Below are positions 8,367 to 55,486 of a DNA stretch of 64,000 nucleotides, piece after piece. A program made the translations under genes and the position numbers. Source of the stretch: Deltaproteobacteria bacterium (GTDB taxonomy: Bacteria > Myxococcota_A > Polyangia > HGW-17); assembly GCA_016937155.1 (NCBI GenBank), contig JAFGWM010000067.1, positions 1-64,000 on the forward strand. Direction: 5' to 3'. The notes below the pieces were generated by a model. That model made no database searches and was not told the origin of the DNA. It was given only the letters and a program-made list of their open reading frames with translations. Every line of letters begins with the position of its first letter. The stretch's first letter is position 1.

Positions 8367-8367
8367 T

Positions 8368-9338: not shown

Positions 9339-10328
9339 ATGCTCAGGTTATTTATTTTATTGGTTTTTATCAGTTCCTGTACAAATGAGGCTAAAGATAC
9401 CTCACCTAAAAAAGATAATGATTCATCCATTAAAGTCACAATGAACGCAGAAAAAAATGCTGCTAAAAACATGAGCTGTGACACACTTTTTGACAACTAT
9501 GGAAAATGCATCGTTTCTGACAAACGTGCTGTATTCAATATTCCCATCGGGAAATCTCCAGTAAAAGGAAATGCTGATGCTCTGGTAACCATTGTGGAAT
9601 TCAGTGATTTTCAATGTCCTGCATGCAAAGGATGGTCAAATACAGTATTTCCAGCACTTTTTAAAAAGTATCCTGGAAAATTGAGGCATGTATTCAAACA
9701 TTTTCCACTAAATTTTCATGATATGGCTAAAACTGCAGCCCAGATTGGGGTAATTGTTCAGTTGAAAAAAGGTTCTGATGCGTTCTGGAAATACCATGAT
9801 CTTGTTTTCGAATCCAAATCTGATCTGACTCTTGAGATTCTTATTTCTCTGGCCGCTTCTGCCGGAGTAAATTCAAAAGTCATTGCAAAGGAGCTTGAAA
9901 ACAACGATGTAAGAACATTTGTTGAAAACGATCTTAAACTTGGAAATAAACTCAGTGTCGGAGGTACTCCATGGGTATATATCAATGGTGAACTTTTCAG
10001 TGGAAACGCAAGTATAGCAGTAATGATTGAGCGTAAAATAAAAGAAGCTCAGGCTCTGGAGAAATCAGGAATTGCCAAAGAAAAACTATATGAAACTATT
10101 ACCGGTAAAGGCACTCCTGTTTCCATGGTTAAAATTCCATCTGCTGAATATATGAATCTGCTGTCAAAGGTCAGAGCTGGTTTTCTCGCCAAATGTAAAA
10201 AACCTGAGGGAAATTTTGTAAAACTTCTCAATATTATGAAATCATGCGCTGCAACCGAAAAGAAGAAATGTGATGATTTTGTTAAATGTGTGGAATTAGA
10301 AATAAAAAAAATTCAGGAGGGTCAGTAA
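9339..10328 (+). CDS. DsbA-family thioredoxin-fold lipoprotein (CPAC), second copy
   Basis: A 329-residue lipoprotein (lipid Cys14 in FISSC) aligned end to end with its upstream neighbour: C47/C57 pair, VEFSDFQCPACK (C93, C96), cis-Pro loop GTPWVYING, and a C-terminal four-cysteine module. AGGAG precedes the ATG by 5 bases. Probably an outer- or inner-membrane-anchored thiol oxidoreductase. It is the last gene of the rny-ymdB-lipoprotein unit; its stop overlaps the end of the convergent gene at 10322 by 7 bases, so no terminator separates them. Confidence 0.88.
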   Translation: MLRLFILLVFISSCTNEAKDTSPKKDNDSSIKVTMNAEKNAAKNMSCDTLFDNYGKCIVSDKRAVFNIPIGKSPVKGNADALVTIVEFSDFQCPACKGWSNTVFPALFKKYPGKLRHVFKHFPLNFHDMAKTAAQIGVIVQLKKGSDAFWKYHDLVFESKSDLTLEILISLAASAGVNSKVIAKELENNDVRTFVENDLKLGNKLSVGGTPWVYINGELFSGNASIAVMIERKIKEAQALEKSGIAKEKLYETITGKGTPVSMVKIPSAEYMNLLSKVRAGFLAKCKKPEGNFVKLLNIMKSCAATEKKKCDDFVKCVELEIKKIQEGQ

Positions 10329-36348: not shown

Positions 36349-36442
36349 TAGCGCTCTTTGAAACTCTTTGATAAATAAGGAGTTCTACAAATCTGGACGT
36401 TAGTGCACAACAGATATTGTTGTTTCCATAATGGAGGTTCCC

Positions 36443-39400
36443 GTGGCAGACTTCAGAGTAGAAGATCTCATTGTAACGCTTGATGAAACCCATGAAGGTG
36501 ATGTTGCTGAATGGCTTGGAAAAGCCGAAGAATTTGAATCGGAAGGCAACCTGCCTAAAGCTCTTGATGCGTACAACCGTGCAGTAAGAGCTGCAGATGA
36601 TTCCCTCGTTATTCCGAGGCTCAAACAGGCTGAAATCTTTTTACAGATGGAAAGATGGAATCAGTATGTTGATGCTCTCAATGATGTTTCAAAACGTCTA
36701 TCTGACGAAATGATCGAAGAAAAAGTGGGACTCCTGAAAATTACTGTTCCTATTCTCAGGGACAAAATGAACATTGCGCCAAAAGTGCTTGATGCCTATA
36801 AGCGTATTCTGGAAATCAAGCCTGATGATGAAGAGTCATTCAACGAACTTGTTGATATGATAACATCAATGAAAAGATGGCCGGATCTTGTCAAGCTTTA
36901 CAATTCAAAACTTGAGACACTCACTGATGAATATGACAAGATTCCTGTTCTCTCAGAAATTGCACGCATCTATAACGATGAAATGCACAACAAAAGAGAA
37001 GGGGTAAAGGCATATGAAGCACTTCTTGAAGTGGATCCCCACAATGAAAGTGCCATTTCCAATCTCAAGGAAATGTATGAGCAGGGAAGAGACTATGATA
37101 ATCTCATAGCACTGTATAAACGAGAAATGGAAACCATATCCGACGGTGATGAACTCCGTGAAAAATCACTGGAACTTGCTCAGATGGCTTCCACCAGAAT
37201 AAGAACTCCGGAAACACTGATGGAACTATGGAACAACGTTATTGAAGTTGATCCTGACAATCTTGAAGCCATGGAAAATCTTGAGAGTCTCTATGACAGG
37301 GCAAAAGATTACGAAAATATGGTTCTGATCAGCGAAAAAATGCTGGAAATTCTTTTTGATGACAAAAAGAAAATTGATGTATGTACAAAACTTGCCCCGA
37401 TTTACCAAGATAAACTTGAAGACAATATAAAAGCTATAAACACATGGAAAATCCTCCTTGAACTTGATTCTCAGAACCGAAGAGCTCAGGATGCACTGAA
37501 AAAACTTCTGGTGGATGTCAAAGCCTGGGATGAACTGGAACTTCTATTCACAGAATGGGATAAACTTGAGGAATACATCAGAATTATAAGCAAGGAATCA
37601 GATCATCAGGATACAGATGAAGGAAAACTTGATCTTCTTTTCCGCGAAGCTCGTATCTGGAGAGAAAATCTGGATAAAAGCGACAGGGCTATGAAGGCCT
37701 ATGAAAAAATACTGAGTGTTGACGATAATAATCTCGAATCAGCTCAGGCTCTCATCGATCTTTATATCGAAAGCAACCAGCATAGAAAACTTCCTCAGGT
37801 TCTGGAAATCAGAATTAATCATACTGAGGATGAATACACAAAAAGAGAGCGGATGGAGGAACTTGCAGGGATCTACGAAGAACATTTGAGAGATAAGGAT
37901 TCCGCATTTACCTGGTATCTGGAGGCCTTCGCTCAGGAACCTCAAAGAGAAGAAAATCGTCTCAAACTTGAAGATCTTGCTTCAGGTGTAAAAGAGGGAT
38001 GGAATAAAGTTGTTAAGGCTTATGAAGAAAGTCTTGAAAGCTTTTCAAACCCTGCTGATTCACTACCTCTCCTGCAGGTAGTGGCGAAAGCTCAGGAAGA
38101 AGAACTCAAGGATTCCGATGCAACACTGCTGACATGCAAAAAAATTCTCGAACTTGATCCTTCAAACAACTCCGCCTTAGATGGATGTGAGCGTATTTAC
38201 AGAGAAAAACAAAAATGGGAAGAGCTTCTGGAAATATACTCCCAAAAAATAGAACTCGCTTTTGAAGAAGAGGAAAAAAAGGATCTTTTCTGGAAAAAAG
38301 CTGAAATTTTTGATTCCCTGCTGGAAAAACCAGATGAAGCTATTGACTGTTATCTTGCTGTTCTGGATTTCATACCCGGTCATATTGAATCTCTTAGCCA
38401 GCTTGATGCCCTGTATCTGAGACTTGAAAATTGGCAGGAACTCAGTGATGTCATAGAGAAAGAACTTGATCTGGCATTTGATGATACCGATGCCCGAGTG
38501 AGTCTGAAATTCAGATGGTCCGTAATTCAGGAGTCCCATCTTGAAAATGTGAACGATGCAGTGGAAGGATATCGTGAAGTACTCGATCTTGAAAATGGTC
38601 ATGAGGGTGCCAGAGCTAATCTTGAAAAACACCTTTCTGATGAAGATATTTTTATAAAAAGATCCAGTGCCGATATACTGGAACCCATTTATGAACTTAT
38701 GGGAGAATTTGAAAATCTAGTCAAAGTTCACGAAATTCAGGCTGAAACAGAAGATGATCCGGAAAAAACCCTTGAACTGCTTTTGACAATCGGAAAAATA
38801 TGGGCAGAAAACATTGGTGAACCGGCAAAAGCTTTTGACGCACTCAGTAGAGCATCTGTATTCAATCCTGAAAGTCAGGAGGCCCGTTCCAGACTTGAAT
38901 CTATTTCTGAAATTGAGGATAAATGGGCGGATACATTGGCTGTTTATAAAAAAATTCTTGAATCAGAGGATTTATCTGATGATGTTAAAAAGGAAATTAG
39001 CATAAGAGCTGCTCAGATAGCTTATGAAAAACTGGATCTTGAAGATGATTCGATATCATTTTATTCCAGTGCCCTTCTTATTCAGCCTGACAACGAAGAA
39101 GTGCTGAATGCTCTTGAGCTTCTTTACGGGCAGAGTGAAAAATGGGAAGAACTTCTTGAAATTAGCCGCAAACAGCTTGAACTTGCCTTTGAAGTTGATA
39201 AAAGGCAGGCTTTGAGATTCAGGTGTGGTGAACTTCTTGATTCCAATCTTGACAGACCAAAAGAAGCAGTAAGTGTTTATGAAGAAATTCTCGGAGAAGA
39301 ACATGAGAACCTCACTGCCCTGCATGCTCTTGATGTCCTTTATCAGAAGCTTGAACAGTGGAGTGAGCTTGCAGACAATCTCACAAGACAACTGGAGCTG

Positions 39401-42400
39401 GCTTTTGAGATTGATACTCAAAGTGAACTTCTCAGAAGACTGGCGGTTCTTCAGCATGAGAAACTTGATGAAACTGTTATTGCAATTGAAACCTGGAAAA
39501 AAGCTCTTGATCTGAATAACGAAGATGAATCAGTTATAAAAAGTCTGGAATCACTTCTCACCGATGAGGATAACTCATTAAGTGTAGCCAAAATTCTTGA
39601 GCCGGTATACAAAGTTCTCGGTAGATGGGAAAATCTTATCCGTACATACGAAATAATGAAAGCGGCCAGTTTTGATCCTTATGAGCAGATTGAGCTACTT
39701 TATCGTATTGCTACAATTTATGAGGACAGTGTAGAAAAACCCGAAAGTGCCTTCGATGCATTTTCACGGGCATTCAGAATTGATCCCACAAAAATTGAGA
39801 CGATTGAGCAACTGGAGAGACTGTCAATGAGCCTTTCCAACTGGGAATCTCTGTTTGAACTCTATGAAGAAAAAATTTCCAGTGGAGATGACATTGAAAT
39901 AGCTCTAAATCTTCAGACCAGAATTGCTCAACTTTTGTCAACTGCAGTTGGGGATATTGATAGAGCAGCAAAGGCCTATGAAAAACTTCTGGAGATTAAA
40001 CCTGATCATATTCCTGCAGTAGATGCACTTGAGCAGCTTTTCCTTGAAAATGGTGATACTCAAAAGATGGTTGAAGCCATTCTCAAAAAAGTTGAACTCG
40101 TGTACGATCCCGATGAGAAAAAGCAACTGGCGTTCCGTGCAGCTGATATTCAACTGAATCAACTCGAGAAAAAAGAAGATGCTATCAGCACCTACAGACT
40201 GATTCTTGAGATTGATGATACCGATTTTGATGCACTCCAAAATCTCGAAGCTATTTTTGTTCAGGACGGAGACTGGGAAAACCTTAAGGACGTTTACGCA
40301 AGAAAGGCTGATCTTGCTCCTTCTATGGATGAAAAGAAAAATATGCTTTATATCCTTGGTCAGGTATATGACGAGGAAATCAAAGATCTGGACAAGGCAA
40401 TTGAAACATATGAGAGAGTTCTGGATGAAGATCCTGTTGATGATGTTGCACTTCAGAGACTTGATAATCTGTATGAGAGAGCCGAGAAATGGCAGGAACT
40501 CATCAACATTCTTGAAATAGAAATTCAGAATGCAATGAGTGACGGTGAAGTTGCCTCCATAAAACTCAGACTTGGTCAGATTCACGAATTAAAACTTTCA
40601 GATGTCTCCACTGCTGTCCCTGTATACGGTGAAGCTCTTTCCCTTGATGACAACAATTCTGAGATAATAGTTAATATAACAAGGGTTATGAATGGTGGTG
40701 AGGCTGATACAGAGATAGAATATTCACCGGAAGATCGTCTTGGTGCCGCAAATCTCCTTGATACTTATTATTCAAGAGTCATGGAACCGGAAAATCTGGT
40801 GAGTGTACTCAATGTTATGGTTGATCAACTGGAGGACAGTTATGAAAAAGTTGTTCAACTTCATCGTCTTGTTGAGATCCATGAACTTCAACTTAATAAT
40901 CATGAAAACGCAAGAAATGACATGGGAAGAGCCATTCTTTTAGACTGGCGCAATGAAACAACTCTTTCTGAAATAGAACGTTTGAGTGGAATTGCCGGTG
41001 ACTGGAACTGGCTGATTGCAAAATATGATGAAGTACTCGGACTTTGTGAAGATGATGAGGATAGGATTTTCTTCCAGATTCTCATTACCAGAGTTTTTGA
41101 AGACGAACTGCAGTTACTTGAAAACGCAACTGCCAGACTGGTCAAAGTTCTGGAAATTGATCCCGAGAATGAAAAAGCACTGCGTGGTCTGGACCGTCTT
41201 TATGACAAACAGTCCATGTATGATGAACTAACTGAAATTCTTCGTAAAGAAATTGAGATTATAAATGATCCAATGGAAATACTTGGGTTCAGAAGCCGAC
41301 TTGCACAGTTGCTTGTTGATCATCTTCAAAAACCACAGGATGCAGTAATTGCATACAAGGAATTACTTGAAGAAGCTCCTGACTTTGCAGGAGCAAGGGA
41401 TGGACTGGAGCAACTCCTTAAAGCCGGTGTTGTTCCTTCAGAAATATATCAGATTCTCGAACCCTTATACAGGGGTGATTCCGATTGGGAAAGACTTGTA
41501 GAAATATCAGAAGTCAATCTCACATTCATTGAAGATGCATTTGAAAGAGTTTCAATGCTGAAAATCATCTGTGATCTTCATGAAAACTATCTTGCTGATC
41601 CTGAAGCCGCTTTCAAGACCTATGCTAGGGCTTTTGCAGAAACAGCAGAAGACATGGAAGTCAATGAAAGACTTGAAGAACTCGCTATGAGTCTTGCAAT
41701 GTGGCCTGATCTTACTGTTGTATATCAACAGGGTGCTGAACGCGAAAGAAACTTTGCCCTGATCAATCCTGATGAGGCTGAAGATCACAACATTCTTTCA
41801 ATAAACATATGGCTTAAATGCGCAAGAGTTTTTGAAGAAGAGATCCATGATCCGGCAGGTGCTGAAAATTCAAACCTTCAGGTTCTGGAGATTGATCCTG
41901 TAAACTTCACATCTCTTGAAAGTCTCGATAGAATTTATATTGAAAACATGATGTATCCAGAATTGAGCGGAATTCTTTCCAGAAGAGCCGAGGCCAGTGA
42001 AGATGATTATGATCGTGTAAATTTCTATTTCAGACTTGCAAAACTGGAAGAAGAACAACTGGGGAACATAGATAAAGCAGTATCAGCTCTTGAACATGTT
42101 GTCTCTGTGGAAAATGATAACATAGAGGGGCTTGAGGGCCTGGAAAGATTGCATTTCCAGAGTGCTAACTGGAAAGATCTCTATCATGTTTATGAGAGAA
42201 TGACTAAAGCAGTCACCAGCGATGATGAAATCAGTGAAGCGCTGAGTCGAATGGCTAAATTATCCAGTGACGGACTTTCAGATCCGGTAAATGCCAAGGG
42301 ATTATGGCTGAAAGTTCTTGATCTTAGAGGTGAAGATCCACGAGCACTGGGAGAACTTGCTGTTTTAGCTGAAAATGATGAGAACTGGGATGCAACTGTC

Positions 42401-45400
42401 GACTTCCTGGACAGAATCACTCAGGCTTCATACGAAACTTCTGAACAGATCAATGCATATCTCAGTCTGGGTCGCGTATGTCTCGAAAAACTTTCTGATC
42501 ACAGAAGAGCAATGGATGCTTACCTCAATGTTCGCAGTATGGACTCTGTCAACATTGAAGCGCTTGAAAGACTTGCCTACATTTACAATGAAAGCCAAGC
42601 ATGGGAAGAACTTGTTGAAGTTCTTGAGGCTCTTGTCAGTGCAGGTAATGAGTCTCTCGGTACTTTAAAATTAAGAAATCGCTTTGCTCAAATAGGACAT
42701 ATCGAAAAAGAGTACCTCGTTAGAATTGACAGGGCTATAGACGCATGGGAGAGAGTTCTGTCCATTCAACCTGGAGATAAAGAAGCTCTTGATGCTCTTG
42801 AAATTTTATATACTCAGGAAGAAAACTGGGGTAGTACCATCCGTATTCTCGAGGAAAAACTCAAGGTTGCTCAGACAATTGATAATCAGAGAGAACTTCT
42901 GTTCCTCATTGCCGACATCTGGGAAAACAGAATGTACGGTAAGAGTGAAGCTGCTGATGCTTACTTCAGAATTCTTGCTCTTGACAAGATTAATACAAGG
43001 GCATTTGAAAATATCGAACGCCTTTACAAGGATCTTGAGCTCTGGGATAGACTGTCTGAGATATATCTCAAACGCTATGAAAATCTTGGCGGAATGGATG
43101 AGGATATCCCCGAAAACAACCAGGGTGAAATTGTTTCACTCCTTCAAAGATTAGCTGAGGTTTATGAGGATAAAAAGCATGATCGTGAGCAGGCTTTTGT
43201 TGCATTAAGCACTGCCTTCGATATTGAACCCACAAACAATATTACTGCTGAAAGACTTGAAAGAATTGCCGGCATTGAAGATAACTGGCAAGAACTTCTT
43301 GATATGTATGAAGAAGCAGTTGAACATGAAGATGACAGAAAGGTAAAATGTGATCTTCTTGTAAAAATGGGTAAGTGGTATGCTGATCAACTGGAGAACC
43401 TTGAAAAAGCATCTGAGGTTCTCAAGCAAGCTCTTAAACTTGATCCCAATTATGGCGGTGTCCATATTGTTCTTGCTGAAGTTCACAAGAAAAATGGCTC
43501 AATTGGAGAGTATATTGATGAACTCAAACGTGCTCTGGAGGTTGAAGAGGATCCAACCATAAGGTTTAAAGCAGCAAGCGAACTTGCTCATGTTCATGAA
43601 AAAGAGTTTGCTGATAATCAGGGAGCTATTCTTTACTACAGAGTCGCCCATGAAAGTTCTCCCACTGATCCGGTTCCCATTCAGGCCCTTGAAAGACTTC
43701 TGGAGTCAACTGAAAAATGGCGTGAACTTATTGATATTATACAGGAGCGCGTAACCGCTTCCACAAACGAAGAAGAAATAATAGATCTCAAAATTCGTAT
43801 TGCGGAACTTTATGATGATAGACGTGAAAGTCCCACAAAAGCTATCGAGACTCTGAATGAAATCCTCGAAATGAGAGAGGATCACCTCCCTGCAATGAGA
43901 TTCCTCGAAAGACTTTATGATAAAATCGGTGATATGGAGGAATATCTGAGTCTTCTTGAAAGACAGATGAACTTTGTTACAAACAGCGATGAACGTGTAA
44001 TGAAATATCATCAGATGGCGGCTGTCTGGGAAGAACATTACGAAAAAGTCGACAAGTCCATAGAGTGCTATGAAGCAATCCTCGAAATTAACGATAAGGA
44101 TGAGCAGGCATATCGAAATCTTGGCAGATACTACAGACAGGAAAAACGCTGGAGTGACTATATTGATATTCTCTATCGTCACGTAAACTCAACATTTGAT
44201 CCATCTGAAAAAGTCAGACTGTACAAGAGTGCAGCTGATGCTCTGGAACGTTATCTTGAAGAACCGGAAAGAGCAATTGATGCATATCTGGCAATTCTTG
44301 ATGAAGAGCCCAGAGATGTGGATGCTTTAACCGCTCTTTCAAGACTTTACGAGCAGCAGGGTAACTGGGAAAGAAGTCTTGACATCAGTCAGCAGCTCGT
44401 TGAACTTGTTGACGATGATCAGGTCAAAAAAGAACTCTATTTTAGACTTGGTAAGATAAGTGAAGAACAGCTTAACGATCATGATGAAGCTGAAAGACTC
44501 TATGCTGAAGCCCTTGCAATTGATCCATCTTTTGTTGGTGCTCTCAGAGAACTAAGTAGAATTTATGAGGATCGCGGAGACTGGATTAAAGCAAGCAGAA
44601 TGCTTGATACTGCAAAAGAGCATACTGCAAACATTGTTGATAAGGCTCAATATCTGTATCAAAGTGGTGTAATTTATTACGATCACCTTGAGGATCCACA
44701 AAAAGCTGAAGAACTTTTCTCTGAATGTCTGGAAATTGATCCGGAACATGTTGATGCCGCACTCAAGTATGTGGATATACTCTGGAAAAATGAAAAATAT
44801 TCCGAAATGTATTCTCACCTACAGATGCTTGTCAGAAAACTTAAGGCTCAGAACGCAGACAGAGATGTGATGGTTCAGATTTATTTCAGATATGGTACTT
44901 CCTGCCATAAAATGAATGAACTTGAAAAGGCACTTAAGGCATTCAATGAAGCTTTCATTCTTGAAAAAAGCTCACTGCCTATTCTTAAGGGTCTTGCAAG
45001 TGTTCACTATGCCCTTGAACAATGGGAAGAGGCTTTCTCTAAATTCAAACAGATTCTCGTACACCTTCAGGGGAGTGATGACACAGATCTTCAGACCGAG
45101 ATTTACTATAATCTTGGAAACATCAGATTTAAACAGAATGACCTTAGGAGAGCCCAGAATCTGTATGACAAAGCCCTTGAAATGAATCATCTTCACAGAC
45201 CCACCCTTGAAGCGATGGTTGAACTTTATGAAAAAGAACGCAATTTCAAGGCGGCAGCTGAAGTTAAACAGCAGATTATTGATGCAATGGAATACAGTGA
45301 AAAAGTTTCTGCGCTTCTTGATCTCGGAACCTACTTCAGAGAAAAAGTAAAAGATGACAAACTGGCAATAGAGGTTCTCTCGAAGGCCCTGGAAATTGAT

Positions 45401-46945
45401 CCGGATAATACCACCATCATCCATGAACTTATTGAACTTTATCAGACCACTGAACAGTGGAAAAAAGTATCACGTCTGATGATAAAACTTGCCGAGATGG
45501 AACAGGATCCTATGATTCGTTCAAAAATCTGGTACGGAGTTGCAGGTATTTATCGTTCCTACATAAACAGCCTTGATGATGCAATTGATTACTACAACAA
45601 GGTTCTGGATGATGATTATACAAATCTGAAGGCATTTTCCTACATTGATAAACTTCTGACTCAGAAGAAAGACTGGAAACTTCAGGAAAGATCATATCGC
45701 AAAATGATCAAACGCATAATGGAGAACAATCCCTCAAATACAGGTTTGCTTGTAAGTCTATGGCATGCTCTTGGCGAAATCTATCGTTCGAGACTTCGTG
45801 ATATGACCAGTGCCATGGCAGCATTTGAAACTGCAATTGGTTATGATCCAAGTGATATGAGCAGATTTGAAATTCTAGCTGAACTTTATACTTTATCAGG
45901 AAATGACACTTGGCCTAAAGCCATTGAAATGTATCAGGAAATACTCAACAGAAATGCTTATCATACTGAAGCACTTAAAAATCTCTATAAACTGTACCTT
46001 GATACAAGAGCATACGATAAAGCATGGTGCATTTCATCAATTCTGAATTCACTTCGGCTTGGTGAGCAGCAGGAACTTGAGTTCTTTCATCAGTACAAAC
46101 CTGGTGGATTTGTCAAACTTCAGGATAGATACACTGAGGATCTCTGGAATCGTCTGATTATATCCCCTTCAGAGGATGTTTATCTCAGACACATCGCTGC
46201 TTCTATAAGCGGACCAATATCACTTGCACGTGGCTTGACATTCAAGGCACTGGGAATTAACCGCCGTAACAGACAGGAACCTACTGGTGAAGGTCCAATG
46301 TTTACGAAAATATTCTTCTATCTTGCTGAAAAGATGGGGGTTGAAGTTCCTGAAATCTATCTCCTCACAGATAGGAGAGGTACATTCAATCATTATATCG
46401 GTGTTGAAAAAGGACAGCGAATTCCGATAATGACAGTTGGTCTTGATATGCTTCAGGGGCACATGGAAAAAGATCTCGGTTTCCATATTGCAAAAGAACT
46501 TACTTATATGAGACCTGAGCATTATTTACTGAAAAATGTACAGTCTGTGGGTGAATTCACAGCTTTCATTCTTGGTGCAATAAGACTTGTAAATCCGACT
46601 GTTCAACTTCCGGGTGATGCCAATGTTATCAACCAGACTGCTGCACAGTTAAATGGACTGCTTCCTCAGGCCAACAAGGAAGCTCTTGCAGGCATAGTAT
46701 CCAGAATGGTTGCAGCAAATCACCTGCCCAACATCAATGAATACATCAAAGCTGTAGAGCTTTCTTCCCATAGGGCTGCGATGACCGCTGTTCAGGATCT
46801 TGATACTGCACTTACAATAATTCAGTCCGAGCCCATGGTTTCGGGTGGTGGTTCCAATCAGGATAAAAAAGAAGCCATAATAAGATTCACCACCAGTGAA
46901 CAGTTCTTCGAACTCAGAAAATATCTTGGTGTTGCAATAGGTTAA
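36443..46945 (+). CDS. Giant TPR-type repeat protein (about 3500 residues)
   Basis: A 10.5-kb uninterrupted frame. The start is probably GTG at 36443, because GGAGG (36433-36437) sits 5 bases upstream; the ATG at 36431 overlaps that site. Residues 20 to about 3190 are acidic helical repeats of TPR type with the signature ...Y..(I/V)LE(I/L)DP.N..AL..L..LY...W..L. The W-to-W period is 72 residues, i.e. two TPR hairpins, so roughly 40 modules by length. The last 300 residues form a distinct domain (see findings) whose core resembles M48-type metallopeptidases but reads AKELTYMRPEH where HExxH would be. No signal peptide or TM helix, so it should be cytoplasmic. Myxococcus AgmK/GltI is a TPR protein of similar size; homology is not shown. 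Confidence 0.92.
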   Translation: MADFRVEDLIVTLDETHEGDVAEWLGKAEEFESEGNLPKALDAYNRAVRAADDSLVIPRLKQAEIFLQMERWNQYVDALNDVSKRLSDEMIEEKVGLLKITVPILRDKMNIAPKVLDAYKRILEIKPDDEESFNELVDMITSMKRWPDLVKLYNSKLETLTDEYDKIPVLSEIARIYNDEMHNKREGVKAYEALLEVDPHNESAISNLKEMYEQGRDYDNLIALYKREMETISDGDELREKSLELAQMASTRIRTPETLMELWNNVIEVDPDNLEAMENLESLYDRAKDYENMVLISEKMLEILFDDKKKIDVCTKLAPIYQDKLEDNIKAINTWKILLELDSQNRRAQDALKKLLVDVKAWDELELLFTEWDKLEEYIRIISKESDHQDTDEGKLDLLFREARIWRENLDKSDRAMKAYEKILSVDDNNLESAQALIDLYIESNQHRKLPQVLEIRINHTEDEYTKRERMEELAGIYEEHLRDKDSAFTWYLEAFAQEPQREENRLKLEDLASGVKEGWNKVVKAYEESLESFSNPADSLPLLQVVAKAQEEELKDSDATLLTCKKILELDPSNNSALDGCERIYREKQKWEELLEIYSQKIELAFEEEEKKDLFWKKAEIFDSLLEKPDEAIDCYLAVLDFIPGHIESLSQLDALYLRLENWQELSDVIEKELDLAFDDTDARVSLKFRWSVIQESHLENVNDAVEGYREVLDLENGHEGARANLEKHLSDEDIFIKRSSADILEPIYELMGEFENLVKVHEIQAETEDDPEKTLELLLTIGKIWAENIGEPAKAFDALSRASVFNPESQEARSRLESISEIEDKWADTLAVYKKILESEDLSDDVKKEISIRAAQIAYEKLDLEDDSISFYSSALLIQPDNEEVLNALELLYGQSEKWEELLEISRKQLELAFEVDKRQALRFRCGELLDSNLDRPKEAVSVYEEILGEEHENLTALHALDVLYQKLEQWSELADNLTRQLELAFEIDTQSELLRRLAVLQHEKLDETVIAIETWKKALDLNNEDESVIKSLESLLTDEDNSLSVAKILEPVYKVLGRWENLIRTYEIMKAASFDPYEQIELLYRIATIYEDSVEKPESAFDAFSRAFRIDPTKIETIEQLERLSMSLSNWESLFELYEEKISSGDDIEIALNLQTRIAQLLSTAVGDIDRAAKAYEKLLEIKPDHIPAVDALEQLFLENGDTQKMVEAILKKVELVYDPDEKKQLAFRAADIQLNQLEKKEDAISTYRLILEIDDTDFDALQNLEAIFVQDGDWENLKDVYARKADLAPSMDEKKNMLYILGQVYDEEIKDLDKAIETYERVLDEDPVDDVALQRLDNLYERAEKWQELINILEIEIQNAMSDGEVASIKLRLGQIHELKLSDVSTAVPVYGEALSLDDNNSEIIVNITRVMNGGEADTEIEYSPEDRLGAANLLDTYYSRVMEPENLVSVLNVMVDQLEDSYEKVVQLHRLVEIHELQLNNHENARNDMGRAILLDWRNETTLSEIERLSGIAGDWNWLIAKYDEVLGLCEDDEDRIFFQILITRVFEDELQLLENATARLVKVLEIDPENEKALRGLDRLYDKQSMYDELTEILRKEIEIINDPMEILGFRSRLAQLLVDHLQKPQDAVIAYKELLEEAPDFAGARDGLEQLLKAGVVPSEIYQILEPLYRGDSDWERLVEISEVNLTFIEDAFERVSMLKIICDLHENYLADPEAAFKTYARAFAETAEDMEVNERLEELAMSLAMWPDLTVVYQQGAERERNFALINPDEAEDHNILSINIWLKCARVFEEEIHDPAGAENSNLQVLEIDPVNFTSLESLDRIYIENMMYPELSGILSRRAEASEDDYDRVNFYFRLAKLEEEQLGNIDKAVSALEHVVSVENDNIEGLEGLERLHFQSANWKDLYHVYERMTKAVTSDDEISEALSRMAKLSSDGLSDPVNAKGLWLKVLDLRGEDPRALGELAVLAENDENWDATVDFLDRITQASYETSEQINAYLSLGRVCLEKLSDHRRAMDAYLNVRSMDSVNIEALERLAYIYNESQAWEELVEVLEALVSAGNESLGTLKLRNRFAQIGHIEKEYLVRIDRAIDAWERVLSIQPGDKEALDALEILYTQEENWGSTIRILEEKLKVAQTIDNQRELLFLIADIWENRMYGKSEAADAYFRILALDKINTRAFENIERLYKDLELWDRLSEIYLKRYENLGGMDEDIPENNQGEIVSLLQRLAEVYEDKKHDREQAFVALSTAFDIEPTNNITAERLERIAGIEDNWQELLDMYEEAVEHEDDRKVKCDLLVKMGKWYADQLENLEKASEVLKQALKLDPNYGGVHIVLAEVHKKNGSIGEYIDELKRALEVEEDPTIRFKAASELAHVHEKEFADNQGAILYYRVAHESSPTDPVPIQALERLLESTEKWRELIDIIQERVTASTNEEEIIDLKIRIAELYDDRRESPTKAIETLNEILEMREDHLPAMRFLERLYDKIGDMEEYLSLLERQMNFVTNSDERVMKYHQMAAVWEEHYEKVDKSIECYEAILEINDKDEQAYRNLGRYYRQEKRWSDYIDILYRHVNSTFDPSEKVRLYKSAADALERYLEEPERAIDAYLAILDEEPRDVDALTALSRLYEQQGNWERSLDISQQLVELVDDDQVKKELYFRLGKISEEQLNDHDEAERLYAEALAIDPSFVGALRELSRIYEDRGDWIKASRMLDTAKEHTANIVDKAQYLYQSGVIYYDHLEDPQKAEELFSECLEIDPEHVDAALKYVDILWKNEKYSEMYSHLQMLVRKLKAQNADRDVMVQIYFRYGTSCHKMNELEKALKAFNEAFILEKSSLPILKGLASVHYALEQWEEAFSKFKQILVHLQGSDDTDLQTEIYYNLGNIRFKQNDLRRAQNLYDKALEMNHLHRPTLEAMVELYEKERNFKAAAEVKQQIIDAMEYSEKVSALLDLGTYFREKVKDDKLAIEVLSKALEIDPDNTTIIHELIELYQTTEQWKKVSRLMIKLAEMEQDPMIRSKIWYGVAGIYRSYINSLDDAIDYYNKVLDDDYTNLKAFSYIDKLLTQKKDWKLQERSYRKMIKRIMENNPSNTGLLVSLWHALGEIYRSRLRDMTSAMAAFETAIGYDPSDMSRFEILAELYTLSGNDTWPKAIEMYQEILNRNAYHTEALKNLYKLYLDTRAYDKAWCISSILNSLRLGEQQELEFFHQYKPGGFVKLQDRYTEDLWNRLIISPSEDVYLRHIAASISGPISLARGLTFKALGINRRNRQEPTGEGPMFTKIFFYLAEKMGVEVPEIYLLTDRRGTFNHYIGVEKGQRIPIMTVGLDMLQGHMEKDLGFHIAKELTYMRPEHYLLKNVQSVGEFTAFILGAIRLVNPTVQLPGDANVINQTAAQLNGLLPQANKEALAGIVSRMVAANHLPNINEYIKAVELSSHRAAMTAVQDLDTALTIIQSEPMVSGGGSNQDKKEAIIRFTTSEQFFELRKYLGVAIG
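36500..46020 (+). repeat. Degenerate tandem array of 72-residue (216-bp) TPR modules
   Basis: Within the giant gene, modules recur with a 72-residue W-to-W spacing (checked by counting at about 39140-39360 and 44360-44580). Sequence identity between modules is low at DNA level, so the array is old rather than recently expanded. Confidence 0.75.
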
Positions 46946-47143: not shown

Positions 47144-47253
47144 TTTCCTATCCTTTCCTGATTTGATTCACTTTCGATTGTTATCCACTTCACAGTTATG
47201 CTATTCATATTCAGGCCGGAAATTTTACCGGTTAAAAAATAATGGAGGAGCAC

Positions 47254-48828
47254 ATGTCTGGACTAAACCTGAGCAAGGATAAGATTACTGAACTCAGAAT
47301 ACTCGCCGATGATATTACTTCACAGATAAGTCCCCTTATCAAATCTCACACTACGGTAACGGTGGAAAGATCTGTTTTACGTCTTATGGGGCTGGATGGG
47401 GTTGACAATGATGATGTTCCCCTTCCCAACGTACTGGTCAATCACCTTTCTGGCGAACTGAAAAATGGTGTGGCACTGAAAACCGCCTCAGCTATGCTTC
47501 ATTATCGGCTGTCAATTAATGAACTGGCAGAAAAAATCAGTAATAAAGAGATTGATATCACAGGAGATCTAAAAACATCCACTTCAGAAGCATTGGATTT
47601 TCTCAATGAAATCGTTGAGCAGCAACTGGAAACCATACTCCAAGTGCGTTCTGATAGAGAAAGCATGATTAGCTCCCTTGGAGAGGGCTCTATGCCCTGG
47701 CAGTACGTCATTGTAGCAACAGGTAATATTCATGAAGATGTAATTCAGGCAAGGGCCGCAGCTCTAAAAGGAGCAGACATAATTGCGGTAATCCGAACAA
47801 CAGGACAATCCCTGCTGGATTACATTCCTTATGGTATAACCACGGAAGGTTTTGGTGGTACATATGCCACTCAGGCTAATTTCAAACTTATGAGAAGTGC
47901 TCTTGATGAGGTTTCAAAAGAGTGTGGAAGATATATTCGTCTGGTGAACTACGCTAGCGGGTTGTGTATGCCTGAAATCGTCGTAATGGGTGCATTTGAA
48001 CGTCTTGATATGATGCTTAATGATTCTATGTATGGAATCCTTTTCCGAGACATCAATCCTGTCAGAACTTTCATCGACCAGTATTTTTCCAGAATGATCA
48101 ATGCAGTCAGCGGAATGATTATTAATACCGGAGAGGATAATTATCTTACCACCGCTGATGCAATTGAAGGAGCCCATACTGTTTTAGCAAGTGATCTTAT
48201 TAATGAGAGTTTCGCTAAGGCTGCAGGACTTAAACCGTGGCAAATGGGTCTGGGACATGCTTTTGAAATAAATCCTGATATACAGGACGGATTTCTGATG
48301 GAACTTTCTCAGGCACTCATGCTGAGAGAAATTTTCCCACTCAGCCCTCTCAAATATATGCCACCCACCAAATTTATGTCCGGAGATATTTTCAAAGGTT
48401 ATATAATGAACGCACTTTTTAATCTGGTTGGAGTATGGTCAAATCAGGGAATTCAACTACTTGGGATGCTCACTGAAGCCATGCATACCCCATTTTTACA
48501 TGACCGGTACCTTGCCCTAGAAAACAGCAAATACGTAATGAACAATGCCAGACATATTGGTGAAAGTTTTACTGTTAATCCTGATGGCCCTGTAGCCCTA
48601 AGAGCCCGTAATGTTATTGATGAAACCCTTGAATTCCTTAGAACAGTAAAGGATGAAGGACTTCTTGAATCTATAACTGATGGCAAATTTGCTGATATTT
48701 CCCGAACTGTGGAAGGAGGAAAAGGTCTGAGTGGAGTTATTAAAAAATCTGATCACTATCTGAATCCTTTTGCAAAAGTAATGGCTGATAACTTGAAAAT
48801 CAGTGAGGAGGCATCCAAATGGATATAG
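47254..48828 (+). CDS. kamD: Lysine 5,6-aminomutase alpha subunit
   Basis: A 524-residue protein strongly resembling the alpha subunit (KamD) of lysine 5,6-aminomutase, a coenzyme B12- and PLP-dependent enzyme that moves the terminal amino group of lysine/beta-lysine in lysine fermentation. The TIM-barrel core is recognisable (ATGNIHEDVIQA, RTTGQSLLDY, EGFGGTYAT, NYASGLCMPE). GGAGGAG 4 bases upstream selects the ATG at 47254. The stop overlaps kamE by 10 bases. No lysine 2,3-aminomutase, reactivase or downstream kal/kce/kdd gene is within the window. Confidence 0.92.
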   Translation: MSGLNLSKDKITELRILADDITSQISPLIKSHTTVTVERSVLRLMGLDGVDNDDVPLPNVLVNHLSGELKNGVALKTASAMLHYRLSINELAEKISNKEIDITGDLKTSTSEALDFLNEIVEQQLETILQVRSDRESMISSLGEGSMPWQYVIVATGNIHEDVIQARAAALKGADIIAVIRTTGQSLLDYIPYGITTEGFGGTYATQANFKLMRSALDEVSKECGRYIRLVNYASGLCMPEIVVMGAFERLDMMLNDSMYGILFRDINPVRTFIDQYFSRMINAVSGMIINTGEDNYLTTADAIEGAHTVLASDLINESFAKAAGLKPWQMGLGHAFEINPDIQDGFLMELSQALMLREIFPLSPLKYMPPTKFMSGDIFKGYIMNALFNLVGVWSNQGIQLLGMLTEAMHTPFLHDRYLALENSKYVMNNARHIGESFTVNPDGPVALRARNVIDETLEFLRTVKDEGLLESITDGKFADISRTVEGGKGLSGVIKKSDHYLNPFAKVMADNLKISEEASKWI

Positions 48829-49568
48829 ATAATAAATCTATAAAACCCTACGGTGATACACTTAATGACGGATCGATGCAGTTAAGCTTTACGCTTCCCC
48901 TGCCCAAGGGTGCTCACTCCACAGAGGTTGCAAGAAGATTTGTTGCCCAGATGGGTATGAATGAGGTTGAGGTGGTATTAAGCAATGATATTGGAGAAGG
49001 TTTCACCTTCTTTGTAGTTTACGCTAAAACATCACAGACAATTGACTCAACACAGGTTCATGTGCAGGAAATAGTTTCTAAAAAATGGTCGCGAGAAGTC
49101 TGCAATGAGAAAATCGACGAATATTTTCACAGAAAAGTAACCGTGGTTGGAGCCTGTATTGGTGAAGATGCTCATACTGTAGGCATTGACGCAATAATGA
49201 ATATGAAAGGCTATAACGGTCACTATGGACTTGAAAGATACAAAGGATTTAAAGCGATAAATCTGGGAGCGCAGGTAACACCTGAGATACTTCTTAAAAA
49301 AGCCGTTGAACTAAATGCAGATGCCATACTGGTTTCACAAATTGTTACTCAAAGAGATATTCATATTCAGAACCTTACTGAATTTGTCGAATTAGCTGAT
49401 ACATCAGGAATCAGAAAAAACACAATTTTAATTGCCGGTGGTCCTAGAATTGATAATGGTCTGGCGCTAGAATTGGGTTATGATGCTGGTTTTGGCAGAG
49501 GAAGTTTTGCAGATGATGTAGCATCATATATAATTCAGGAACTTCACAGAAGACTTACAGGAGCCTGA
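48819..49568 (+). CDS. kamE: Lysine 5,6-aminomutase beta subunit (B12-binding)
   Basis: A 249-residue beta subunit with N-terminal dimerisation part and Rossmann-like cobalamin domain. The B12 motif DAHTVG supplies the axial ligand His119, and Lys130, eleven residues later (in MNMKGYNGHYG), corresponds to the lysine that holds PLP in an internal aldimine in the clostridial enzyme. The GG-P motif near residue 207 is also present. Together with kamD it should form the alpha2beta2 enzyme. Translation is coupled by the 10-base overlap. Confidence 0.93.
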   Translation: MDIDNKSIKPYGDTLNDGSMQLSFTLPLPKGAHSTEVARRFVAQMGMNEVEVVLSNDIGEGFTFFVVYAKTSQTIDSTQVHVQEIVSKKWSREVCNEKIDEYFHRKVTVVGACIGEDAHTVGIDAIMNMKGYNGHYGLERYKGFKAINLGAQVTPEILLKKAVELNADAILVSQIVTQRDIHIQNLTEFVELADTSGIRKNTILIAGGPRIDNGLALELGYDAGFGRGSFADDVASYIIQELHRRLTGA

Positions 49569-49598: not shown

Positions 49599-49627
49599 TT
49601 GACATCAGTGACATACTGAAGTATTTT
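49599..49627 (+). promoter_or_regulatory. Promoter of the second RNase Y-like gene
   Basis: A perfect TTGACA (49599-49604) and TATTTT (49622-49627) are spaced by 17 bases in the 100-base gap after kamE, so the RNase Y-like gene can be transcribed independently of kamDE. Confidence 0.55.
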
Positions 49628-49668: not shown

Positions 49669-51246
49669 GTGGGACCGGTGTACGCTATGCTTATTTACAT
49701 TACTGTGGCAATAATACTTACTGCTCTATCCTTGAGTATTACTGCTTTTTTTAAGATAAACCTTCTAAATAAATCAGTTTCCTCAGCACTTGAAAAGTCA
49801 AATGAAATTGTATCTGCATCTAAAACAGAAGCGAACATATTGATCTCTAAAGCTAAAGAAGAGGCAGCCGAAATCATCCTTAACTCAAAAAAGAATATTG
49901 AAGTGGAAAAAACCTCTGTTGAGGAAGAACTGCATCAAATGGAATTAAGGCTTGAAAAAGAATCACAGCGGTTGTCACTTTTTGAGAATGAGTTGAGACT
50001 TTCCCAAAAGTCAATTGATTCAAGATACACAGAACTTAAAAAGGTGTTTTCATCTATTCAGGATCTGAAACACAAGAGGCGTTCTGAAATCCAGCGAATC
50101 CCTTCTGTTCTGGAAGAAACAGCTCATGTGAAGGCATCTGAAGTTTCACAACAGCTCTCCAAACAGATGATAGAAAAATCTGTAAGTGAATCACAGGCCC
50201 AACTCAGACAGTGGGATGAAATTCCTGAATCCGAGTTTACTCCCATGGCAAAAAGAATTCTTGGAATAGCTATAGGAAGACTGGGAACCGTAAAAACTCA
50301 GGAAAGACCTTCCTCAATTATTGCACTTTCAAAGGCACATTATGATCGAATTCTTGCCATAACAGAAAAAGATCATGGGACTCTCAATGAACTGTTCGGA
50401 ATGAATCTGAATATAATTGAAAATGGCGATTCCCTGATACTGAAATTTGATACTCTGGATGCAGTCAAGAAGGAGATTGCCAGACGCGTTCTGGAAAAGC
50501 TACCGGACTCTGTTAAAACCATTCAGGATCTTCAGGGTCTATGGGATAAAAAATCATCTGAAATGGATAATGAACTCACCGGTTTTGGACGAAAAGCTTT
50601 TAAGCTTGCGGGATTAAAACCCAAGGGAGATAAAGAAATAATCCGACTTCTTGGAAGGCTTTTTTATCGTACAAGTTATACCCAGAATCAGTGGCTTCAC
50701 AGTGTTGAAGCTGCCCAACTGGCAGGCCTTATGGCGTGGGAACTTCATATGGATGTGGAAACAGCTAAAAGAGCAACTCTGCTGCATGATATCGGAAAGG
50801 CTCTTACCCATGAAATTGAAGGATCACATGCTGAAATTGGAGGTGATTTTGGTACACGGTTTGGTGAGAGTCCTCAGGTGGTTGAAGCAATTTCATCGCA
50901 TCATGGAGAAACAGAATCAATATCACTATTCACCAGACTTGTTATGGCTGCTGATGCAATGAGTGGTGCCCGTCCTGGTGCCCGAAGAGAACTTGTTGAG
51001 AGCTATATGGATCGCATTAGAGATCTGGAATCTGTTGCAAGGACTTTTGATGGTGTAAAGGAAGTATTTGCTGTTCAGGCGGGTAGAGAATTGAGGATAA
51101 TGGTCGACAACAAAGATGTGGATGAAAATCACACTTCTGAACTCGCCAGTGGTATTGCAAAAAAAATCAGTGATGAGGTCACTTTCCCCGGACAGATAAA
51201 AGTTATGGTAATCAGAAGATATAAAGTTGTGGAGTATGCCAGATGA
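49669..51246 (+). CDS. RNase Y-like protein with degenerate KH domain
   Basis: Up to 525 residues with the complete RNase Y layout: N-terminal TM helix, long coiled coil (to about 195), KH position, and HD domain. The HD motifs are intact (QWLHSVEA, LLHDIGKA, SSHHGETE) and the C-terminal end (FPGQIKVMVIRRYKVVEYAR) matches rny closely. The KH segment (about 210-285), however, lacks the GxxG RNA-binding loop: GREG of the true RNase Y is replaced by unrelated sequence (TEKDHGTLNELFG). It may bind other ligands or act as a regulatory partner of RNase Y. The start is uncertain (GTG 49669, GTG 49678 or ATG 49687). Confidence 0.85.
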   Translation: MGPVYAMLIYITVAIILTALSLSITAFFKINLLNKSVSSALEKSNEIVSASKTEANILISKAKEEAAEIILNSKKNIEVEKTSVEEELHQMELRLEKESQRLSLFENELRLSQKSIDSRYTELKKVFSSIQDLKHKRRSEIQRIPSVLEETAHVKASEVSQQLSKQMIEKSVSESQAQLRQWDEIPESEFTPMAKRILGIAIGRLGTVKTQERPSSIIALSKAHYDRILAITEKDHGTLNELFGMNLNIIENGDSLILKFDTLDAVKKEIARRVLEKLPDSVKTIQDLQGLWDKKSSEMDNELTGFGRKAFKLAGLKPKGDKEIIRLLGRLFYRTSYTQNQWLHSVEAAQLAGLMAWELHMDVETAKRATLLHDIGKALTHEIEGSHAEIGGDFGTRFGESPQVVEAISSHHGETESISLFTRLVMAADAMSGARPGARRELVESYMDRIRDLESVARTFDGVKEVFAVQAGRELRIMVDNKDVDENHTSELASGIAKKISDEVTFPGQIKVMVIRRYKVVEYAR

Positions 51247-51770
51247 AAATTTCGGGAAATATTCGAAATGAACCGCAGTTTAAATCCGGATGGTATTTGT
51301 CAATGTTCACTTTGTTCTGGCTTCTCACTGCGGCAATCAGATTTCTCAGTTATATTTCCGGGTACAGAAGCAGAGGCAGTTTTGAGAAAGTTGATGATGT
51401 CTGGCACTTTACAAGAAAAACAACACTATTTGGCATTATAATAGAAGATTTAAAATGGATTGTTAGTGATTCCCAGATAACAAATGTTTCTGAAGGAAAG
51501 CTTGGTGACAGTTCGTTTGTTATTCAGGGAATAATATTGATGCTGTACTTATCCTTCATTGGAATCCTCAGGATTTTTTCGGGGATAACATTGAGTAACT
51601 CAACTGCAATTCTTACCGGTGCAGCGCTTGTTATTTCTGGTATTTTTTTTGATATTGCACTTGTTGCAGCCCACACAATATACGTTAAAAGATATGGTTA
51701 TGTTAAGATTTTCCGTTTTTCCGATGGTACAAGTCTGATCATTAATCCTGATACCAAATCCGATGACTGA
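51243..51770 (+). CDS. Membrane protein of unknown function coupled to the RNase Y-like gene
   Basis: A 175-residue protein with three predicted TM helices (about 20-40, 95-115, 120-145) and a conserved-looking extramembrane segment between the first two. The ATG overlaps the stop of the RNase Y-like gene (ATGA), implying coupled translation and perhaps a membrane complex. The C-terminal 30 residues are polar. No family recognised. Confidence 0.7.
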   Translation: MKISGNIRNEPQFKSGWYLSMFTLFWLLTAAIRFLSYISGYRSRGSFEKVDDVWHFTRKTTLFGIIIEDLKWIVSDSQITNVSEGKLGDSSFVIQGIILMLYLSFIGILRIFSGITLSNSTAILTGAALVISGIFFDIALVAAHTIYVKRYGYVKIFRFSDGTSLIINPDTKSDD

Positions 51771-52999: not shown

Positions 53000-53183
53000 G
53001 ATATTTTTTTTAATTTTAAACTTTTTTTTCTATTTCGTTTATTTTTGAATGTCTCTTTTTCCTTCACTTGTAAAATTTATAAACAAACTGTTTTTCTTTC
53101 AGTTTTTTCAAAATCTGATATATCAAAAGTTTCATACTGTATTTTTCTTATTTGGATGTTACTCTGCTTCAATCGGTTATATT

Positions 53184-54209
53184 ATGGATTCTGAAATTCT
53201 TATACGATTACTTATTCTTGCTGGTCTTCTTCTGTTGAGTGCATTTTTCTCCGGAAGTGAAGTGGCTTTTTTCAGTCTGAATCATTTAGCCAGAAAAAAA
53301 GCAAGTACAAGTAATGAAAGAAGTGATATTCATCTTGTCTGGATGCTGAAACGACCCAGAAGACTCATAATTACTCTTCTTGTGGGCAATGAACTTGTCA
53401 ACATCAGTTCTTCAACAGTGAGCGCTACCATTGCATCCATGCTTTTTTCTCATATGGGAGAACTTGAAAGAACTCTCATTTCAATATCCATTGTTGTGCC
53501 ATTACTTCTAATTATCGGGGAAATTACACCCAAAACAATCGCTATTTTTACATCTCAGAGATGGGCAAGAAAAGTTGCTACACCAATTTATATTTTTTCA
53601 TGGATAATAACCCCTTTGAGATTTTTATTCAGAAAACTAAGTGATCTTATAGTTAATCTCTTTGGTGGCCATGCATCCTCCCATGAAAACCCTCTTTCTG
53701 AGGAAGACTTTCTTCAGTTGGTGGAAAAAGGGAAGGATCAGGGGAAAATCCTTGATCAGGAAGGGGATATGATTGCCAGAGTTTTCAAATTCGGGGATGG
53801 TCTGGTAAAGAACGTCATGACACCAGCTTCCAGAGTTTACGCAGTTGATCTCACTACCCCCATGTCTGAAATCCCTGCAAAATTCAGAAGCGGCATGTTT
53901 TCCAGAATACCTGTGATGAGAGGCAGTGAAGTTATCGGAATACTCCATGCAAAGGATGTTCTGAAGGAAACTCACAGCAAAACATTAGCTGAACTTCTAA
54001 AACCACCGTTTTATGTTTCCCAGAACACAAAATGCCTAAGACTTGTCAACGAATTTCAGAAACGACGAATCCATATGGCTATAGTCTTGAATCAGCATGG
54101 AAAGATGTCCGGAATTGTCACAATGGAAGATCTTCTTGAAGAACTTGTAGGAGAAATTCATGATGAAAAAGAGGTCTTCCCGATTAGAACAACAGGTGAA
54201 ATTAAATGA
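53184..54209 (+). CDS. CNNM/CorB-family membrane protein (DUF21 + CBS pair)
   Basis: A 341-residue protein: DUF21 membrane domain (three to four TM helices, SAFFSGSEVAFFS at the start, IGEITPKTIA) and two CBS motifs (about 200-320, ending in GIVTMEDLLEELVGEI). CNNM/CorB proteins transport or sense Mg2+ and related divalent cations. There is no C-terminal CorC_HlyC domain, unlike the next gene. The start at 53184 matches the family; an open stretch upstream encodes a non-conserved hydrophobic tail. Overlaps the next gene by 4 bases, so the two may act as a heteromer. Confidence 0.88.
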   Translation: MDSEILIRLLILAGLLLLSAFFSGSEVAFFSLNHLARKKASTSNERSDIHLVWMLKRPRRLIITLLVGNELVNISSSTVSATIASMLFSHMGELERTLISISIVVPLLLIIGEITPKTIAIFTSQRWARKVATPIYIFSWIITPLRFLFRKLSDLIVNLFGGHASSHENPLSEEDFLQLVEKGKDQGKILDQEGDMIARVFKFGDGLVKNVMTPASRVYAVDLTTPMSEIPAKFRSGMFSRIPVMRGSEVIGILHAKDVLKETHSKTLAELLKPPFYVSQNTKCLRLVNEFQKRRIHMAIVLNQHGKMSGIVTMEDLLEELVGEIHDEKEVFPIRTTGEIK

Positions 54210-55486
54210 CACTTCTAACTGTTGTATCAATCTGCATATTGGGGCTTATTATAGAGGGATTCTTTTCAGGAAGTGAAATTGCTCTTGTTTCTTCGGATCA
54301 ACTTGCCCTTGAAAAAGCTGCAAAATCTGGTCATAAAGGAGCAAAACTGGCTCTGAAGCTGCTTGATAATTCAGGAGTTATGCTTGCCGTAACCCTAATA
54401 GGCACAAACCTTGCCGTCGTTACAAATACCATTGTAATGACACTTTTTTTTCTTGAAAAATTTGGCCCTAGAGGTGAAATTTACAGTGTACTGATTATGT
54501 CACCTCTGGTTTTACTTTTTGGTGAGATCGTACCTAAAGCTGTATTTCAACAGCACGCCAATTCAATAGCCATCCATGTAAGTTATGTAATCTACTATTC
54601 AAAATATCTGTTTTATCCTCTGGTTTTACTGATGAGACTTTTCAGTGCCAGTGCCACTTCATTACTTGGTATTCAGCAGAATAAAGTGCAGGCTCTCTCA
54701 AGAGAAGATCTAAAATTTCTAATACAGGAAGAAAACGAACTTTTTGATAAGGATGTTCCAAGAATCAACATTAATTCCATCTCCATCAAAGAGGGGGAGC
54801 GGGAAATTATCGGCAACATACTCACCCTCAGAGATACCACCGTTGAAGAGGTGATGATTCCGCTCAGTGAGGTGGTAAGTGCTCCCCAGTCCAGCACTTT
54901 ATCTGATCTGGCAGATCTGGTGACAAAATATGGTTATACAAGAATTCCAATCTATAAGGACAGAGTTGATGTCGTTGTAGGTATTGTGCATGGATTTGAT
55001 GTCCTTGCAACCGCCAATCCCGATAATAAAGCCTCATCAATAATGCAGCCTCCTATTTTCGTACCGGAAACTCAGCATGCATATAAACTTCTCATTGATT
55101 TGCAGCAGGCACGAAAGGGAATGGCCATAGTGGTCAACGAATACGGTGGTGCAGAGGGAATTGTTACTATTGAAGATGTTCTGGAAGAGATTGTTGGAGA
55201 AATTGAAGATGAATTTGATAAACCCGAAGATATTATAGTAAATATTGATGAAATGACTTGGGTTTTGAGTGGTAGAATAAGCATATCTCATCTAAATGAA
55301 GAGCTGGAGTTGGAACTGAAAGAGGATGAGCCATATGAAACAGTGGCCGGACTAATACTACATCATACAAGAAGATTACCTTCCATATCTGAAGAAATCT
55401 ATTTTGAGAATTTTAAATTTACTATTCTTGAAATGACCGATCGGGCAATAATTAAAATCAAACTGGAAAAAATAGACATATCCTGA
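54206..55486 (+). CDS. CNNM/CorB-family membrane protein with CorC_HlyC domain
   Basis: A 426-residue paralogue of the preceding gene: DUF21 domain (GFFSGSEIALVS; LFGEIVPKAVF), acidic helical bundle, CBS pair (about 205-330; GIVTIEDVLEEIVGEIEDEFD), and the C-terminal CorC_HlyC domain (about 345-425). Likely a Mg2+ transporter or regulator. ATG overlaps the upstream stop. The downstream gene is convergent, 13 bases away, without an obvious terminator. Confidence 0.9.
   Translation: MTLLTVVSICILGLIIEGFFSGSEIALVSSDQLALEKAAKSGHKGAKLALKLLDNSGVMLAVTLIGTNLAVVTNTIVMTLFFLEKFGPRGEIYSVLIMSPLVLLFGEIVPKAVFQQHANSIAIHVSYVIYYSKYLFYPLVLLMRLFSASATSLLGIQQNKVQALSREDLKFLIQEENELFDKDVPRININSISIKEGEREIIGNILTLRDTTVEEVMIPLSEVVSAPQSSTLSDLADLVTKYGYTRIPIYKDRVDVVVGIVHGFDVLATANPDNKASSIMQPPIFVPETQHAYKLLIDLQQARKGMAIVVNEYGGAEGIVTIEDVLEEIVGEIEDEFDKPEDIIVNIDEMTWVLSGRISISHLNEELELELKEDEPYETVAGLILHHTRRLPSISEEIYFENFKFTILEMTDRAIIKIKLEKIDIS

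Follow-up and report, generated by a model that had tools for sequence, protein, structure and literature searches.

The question raised by this locus is what a second RNase Y, without the RNA-binding loop of its KH domain, does beside the canonical enzyme. Both genes lie in the window, by which we mean the whole stretch of DNA that was analysed, 64,000 nucleotides of contig JAFGWM010000067.1 of a deltaproteobacterial assembly (GCA_016937155.1), the genome belonging to the Myxococcota. The canonical rny is referred to as N and its paralogue as P; the coordinates of both, and of the other features discussed, are collected in Table 1. As the first-pass annotation had proposed, P is an RNase Y paralogue, matching TIGR03319 (RNase_Y) over its full length at 380 bits, a score that does not reach the equivalog cut-off of 454 bits. 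Its layout is a membrane helix, a coiled coil, a KH fold without GxxG, an intact HD domain and a C-terminal region. Pfam matched RNase_Y_N (PF12072; 41 bits against a cut-off of 32) and HD in P, and gave no match to a KH domain; the RNase_Y_N match and a helix at residues 4-152 of the AlphaFold model bear out the earlier claim that P retains the membrane anchor and coiled coil of RNase Y, and the C-terminal end is kept as well. The HD metal ligand set of H, HD, H, HH and D was found complete by alignment (H344, H373, D374, H387, H411, H412 and D429), and no mutated ligand came to light.

Table 1. Features of the window (the contig's first 64,000 nucleotides), in base-pair order.
Feature	Position	Strand	Basis
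N copy, canonical rny, 518 aa; GREG intact, terminal HD Asp replaced by Asn	4768..6324	+	profile, alignment
KH GREG loop (G225-G228) of N	5440..5451	+	alignment
Codon AAC, N422; Asn replaces the terminal HD Asp of N	6031..6033	+	alignment
Presumed YmdB-like gene downstream of canonical rny	6314..7153	+	ORF
First lipoprotein-like ORF with thioredoxin-type CxxC (CPAC)	8356..9330		by eye
Second lipoprotein-like ORF with thioredoxin-type CxxC (CPAC)	9339..10328		by eye
3504-residue TPR protein	36431..46945
KamD and KamE (lysine 5,6-aminomutase alpha and beta subunits)	47242..49568
TTGACA-17-TATTTT upstream of P	49599..49627
P copy, RNase Y paralogue, 525 aa, GTG start	49669..51246	+	ORF, profile and alignment reading
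Site where P lacks the GxxG loop; A230-I231-T232-E233 (AITE) vs GREG in RNase Y	50356..50367	+	alignment; coordinates from reading frame
Linker between KH and HD of P	about 50477..50690
Codon GAT, D429; terminal HD metal ligand, kept in P	50953..50955	+	alignment
Small membrane protein, 175 aa, ATG overlapping stop of P (ATGA)	51243..51770	+	ORF
First CorC/HlyC-like CBS-domain membrane protein	53049..54209		named by eye
Second CorC/HlyC-like CBS-domain membrane protein	54206..55486		named by eye

The absence of GxxG from the KH position of P was likewise upheld, AITE standing where RNase Y has GREG. In the AlphaFold model (pLDDT 84.6), residues 217-276 form a beta-alpha-alpha-beta-beta-alpha arrangement, i.e., a type I KH fold, and with VIA-align this part superposes on the archaeal exosome RNA-binding protein 2z0s (Z 9.3). 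Because the model has this fold and this match while GREG is replaced, the KH domain of P is predicted to have retained its fold and lost its loop; structure prediction, which had been suggested as a check, returned the fold without its GxxG loop. By the same method, the HD domain of the model superposes on 2pq7 (Z 12.7) and its C-terminal part on the C-terminal domain of MamB (Z 9.7); 2z0s and 2pq7 have also been named as the closest structural matches of a B. subtilis RNase Y model (PMC9775385). A search of solved structures with the canonical RNase Y profile found no RNase Y chain among them, and a search for solved relatives through the HD and C-terminal part gave mainly matches to TAL-effector repeats, which were judged spurious.

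The first-pass annotation treated the other copy as a normal RNase Y, and this did not survive alignment, since N has lost its terminal HD ligand. N scores 643.7 bits against TIGR03319, above the curated cut-off (454), and has both a PF00013 match and the GREG loop. Its sequence, however, reads VQIA-N-TLSAQRPGAR where the usual RNase Y has AADALSxARPGAR, so the HD metal ligand set is incomplete, with Asn (N422) for the terminal Asp. This Asn, in the canonical rny of the very same window, had gone unnoticed. On the tests of RNase Y membership P falls short in two and N in one, and together the pair holds every feature. The gene downstream of N is presumed to be YmdB-like, from the usual context of rny. 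In HD enzymes the terminal Asp binds metal within the H...HD...D motif, and substitutions of HD ligands inactivate YfbR (PMC8177086). In the Asn-type RNase Y of three genomes of family f41 (L128, L130 and L131; G111, G092 and G224), the second His of HH is also replaced, by Arg or Glu.

The search with TIGR03319 covered 39 relatives, 286 genomes from across the phylum, a further family and a hold-out of 23 genomes; the sequences of the copies were then retrieved and inspected at every key position. Within the Myxococcota, 44 genomes have an Asn-type rny together with P, and in three of these (G012, G038 and G087) P is truncated by the end of a contig to an N-terminal fragment; a further 67 have an Asp-type rny without P. 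No Myxococcota genome searched combined an Asp-type rny with P, and none had an Asn-type rny without it. The hold-out, none of whose genomes had been used before, fits this reciprocal pattern with no exception. The canonical copy of every two-copy genome has Asn and GREG, and every P copy read has the terminal Asp and all other HD ligands and lacks GREG, with GxxG-like letters remaining in two of them (FGPGG in G014 and GEEG in G290). Single-copy genomes retain both Asp and GREG, 12 of them having been read only by DNA pattern inside the RNase Y match. The changes in N and P are thus reciprocal across the Myxococcota; as most of the 44 genomes go back to a single event, they are not independent. 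Eight draft genomes have P only (G013, G023, G214, G254, G317, G339, G385 and G388; G385 also has a small C-terminal piece, possibly of the canonical copy). Among 44 control genomes, most of them from other phyla, there is one RNase Y each, and about 80 RNase Y sequences, almost all from outside the Myxococcota, have both the Asp and GxxG, in a sample biased by the presence of Asp in the scan pattern. Three candidate exceptions were discarded. G038 was dropped as an Asn-type genome without P when its P fragment was found; the Asn-pattern match in G032 has no RNase Y profile match and its translated hit shows none; and that in G085 is absent among the RNase Y profile matches.

One group of genomes appears to repeat the pattern independently. 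In a tree of 119 rows from which the trait columns had been masked, 34 Asn copies form one clade, and the three Asn copies of genus g107 (family f39) fall among Asp-type relatives. A single origin of Asn is rejected (AU p 2e-5), and a single origin of P is not (AU p 0.18). The g107 genes are in tandem, the GTG of the second lying two bases after the TAG of the first; the first encodes GREG and AAN and the second SRLVDAENLN and AGD. Between HDIGK and GGHA the two share an insertion of six residues that was absent from the single-copy f39 relatives and from all other copies examined. Because of the shared insertion and the tandem placement, a second origin of P is indicated as well, and we interpret the f39 pair as having duplicated locally and undergone the same split independently. 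On this evidence Asn arose twice, each time with a second copy that lacks the KH loop and keeps an intact HD domain. The chance that two unrelated neutral changes were simply co-inherited from one ancestor, which the shared descent of most of the 44 genomes might suggest, is very small given the repeat in f39, the fixation of Asn across deep divergence and the strong conservation of the HD domain of P.

The two changes are also specific. In 33 genomes both copies were complete enough to be compared column by column, and between the KH-HD linker and the C terminus the Asn column stands alone in being conserved to 95% or more in Asp-type RNase Y and in P but to less than 60% in N, where it is Asn in 33/33 copies. 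P keeps only 1 of 18 invariant KH columns and 19 of 22 HD columns. Mean pairwise identities for KH, HD and C-terminal region, respectively, are 74, 64 and 54% among N copies, 28, 63 and 48% among P copies, and 74, 66 and 65% among Asp-type Myxococcota RNase Y. The HD domain of N is not simply decaying because, Asn aside, it is conserved nearly as well as that of the Asp-type proteins (64% vs 66%). The C-terminal region, to which a model of the B. subtilis enzyme gives the role of dimerisation (PMC9775385), is looser in both N and P than in the Asp-type proteins. Between N and P, coiled-coil distances show covariation in excess of that of the other domains (partial r 0.35, permutation p 0.0005), which may be taken as weak support for a heteromer; no covariation above background was detected between the C-terminal regions (partial r 0.05).

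The neighbourhood of P was tried as a clue to its function and abandoned, the neighbours not being conserved between families. P had been credited with its own strong promoter, but the region containing the promoter-like sequence holds five such sites where 6.6 are expected by chance. The coupling to a small membrane protein is real in that the two genes overlap, but it does not extend beyond the window's family, the only one in which this gene adjoins P; the protein has no Pfam or NCBIfam match and is possibly an accessory outside the core pair. Directly upstream of P, again in the window's family only, are KamD and KamE, and these separate P from the gene for the large TPR protein, which is two genes upstream; in family f7 (L041 and L048), a relative of that TPR protein lies 4 bp upstream of P. 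Two other gene pairs were noticed by eye in the window, namely the adjacent and similar lipoprotein-like ORFs, an apparent tandem duplication, and the overlapping tandem CBS-domain membrane proteins. In addition to N and P, the genome encodes two members of the RNase E/G family (G000:C5:53506-54822 and G000:C2:16523-17785).

Mixed oligomers of P with RNase Y, an idea already raised in the first-pass annotation, remain the leading idea, and we give a probability of about 60% to the reading that N and P, each degenerate where the other is intact, complement one another as subunits of a single membrane-bound, hetero-oligomeric RNase Y. N would grip RNA by its intact KH domain and would be unable, or barely able, to cut, its fourth HD metal ligand being Asn. 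P, whose KH domain has probably lost RNA binding together with its loop, would supply catalysis from its complete HD site. The two would assemble via their shared coiled coils and C-terminal regions, and the KH of one subunit would feed the HD of the other. Indirect pointers to such an association are these shared regions, the co-occurrence of the two copies and the tandem pair of f39. That the split is obligate, with opposite halves lost and activity only as a heteromer, and that it evolved at least twice in the Myxococcota, we consider slightly better than an even bet. B. subtilis RNase Y mutated in its HD domain has almost no activity and acts as a dominant negative (PMC10303841), and mixed oligomers of that enzyme therefore appear to form; by the same token, because the inactive B. 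subtilis subunit is dominant negative, a 1:1 mix need not be active. That the HD of N is conserved almost normally, that two P copies retain GxxG-like letters and that the linker of P is basic all count against the split-enzyme reading. So do the absence of linkage between the N and P genes in the main lineage, the varying neighbours of P, and the eight draft genomes with P alone, there being none of the reverse kind.

Some of these points would suit a subdivision of function without assembly, in which N is a non-cutting RNA-binder or scaffold, P is a KH-independent nuclease or a phosphodiesterase of short RNA or nucleotides, and bulk mRNA decay falls to RNase E/G. RNase E/G was found in 41/41 genomes tested, so the RNase Y pair is not the sole decay endonuclease, and that role for it was ruled out. 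The separate gene locations and the P-only drafts fit as well, as does the linker between KH and HD of P, which is strongly basic (mean net charge +4.2 vs about -0.4 in other RNase Y) and might be a new RNA-contact surface able to bind RNA by itself. Nevertheless, this explanation does not predict that Asn should occur solely alongside P, twice, nor the tightly coupled tandem pair of the second origin, and P has retained the membrane helix, coiled coil and C-terminal region of RNase Y. We regard it as unlikely, if the best of the alternatives.

It is less likely again that N has remained an active RNase that uses its metals differently, while P regulates or stabilises it or serves as its decoy, a relation such as RNase J2 may have to RNase J1. 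N does keep all other HD ligands in most genomes within an otherwise near-normally conserved domain, and its Asn is fixed rather than drifting. Against this stand the Asp found in every one of the roughly 80 RNase Y sequences of other phyla, from a scan biased towards Asp; the inactivation of other HD enzymes by ligand changes (PMC8177086); the additional loss of the second His of HH in the f41 copies; and the retention of most HD columns by P, which is expected of a catalyst. P might also act on a new nucleotide substrate, as had been suggested; that would leave the loss of the canonical Asp wherever P is present unaccounted for.

If the hetero-oligomeric reading is true, these lineages would hold a natural separation-of-function experiment on RNase Y. 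KH and HD could then act in trans between subunits, which would bear on the organisation of RNase Y oligomers, and the change from homomer to heteromer by complementary loss would be convergent. The canonical rny of these lineages is annotated as an active RNase Y despite its altered HD site.

In the open-licence literature, no description of an RNase Y paralogue or heteromer was found. Divergent KH domains keep the KH fold without GxxG, as is predicted for P; in P, unlike in those, the loss is paired with the reciprocal alteration of N. RNase Y (Rny, YmdA, CvfA; TIGR03319) of B. subtilis and S. aureus has the same layout of membrane helix, coiled coil, KH, HD and C-terminal region as N and P, and dimers and tetramers have been reported for the B. 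subtilis enzyme (PMC10303841, PMC9775385). There, KH and HD function are on one protein, whereas here each copy is without one hallmark. Bd1817, a degenerate HD-GYP protein of Bdellovibrio, has Asn for the last HD Asp, as N does, and is inactive on c-di-GMP (PMC8177086), but it is a single protein with a degenerate GYP motif and no complementary partner described. RNase J1 and J2 of the Firmicutes are likewise paralogous RNases, one with a degenerate site and low activity, and interact (PMC7864078), as is predicted for N and P. Their fold is unrelated, however, and J1 is complete alone, whereas neither N nor P has both hallmarks.
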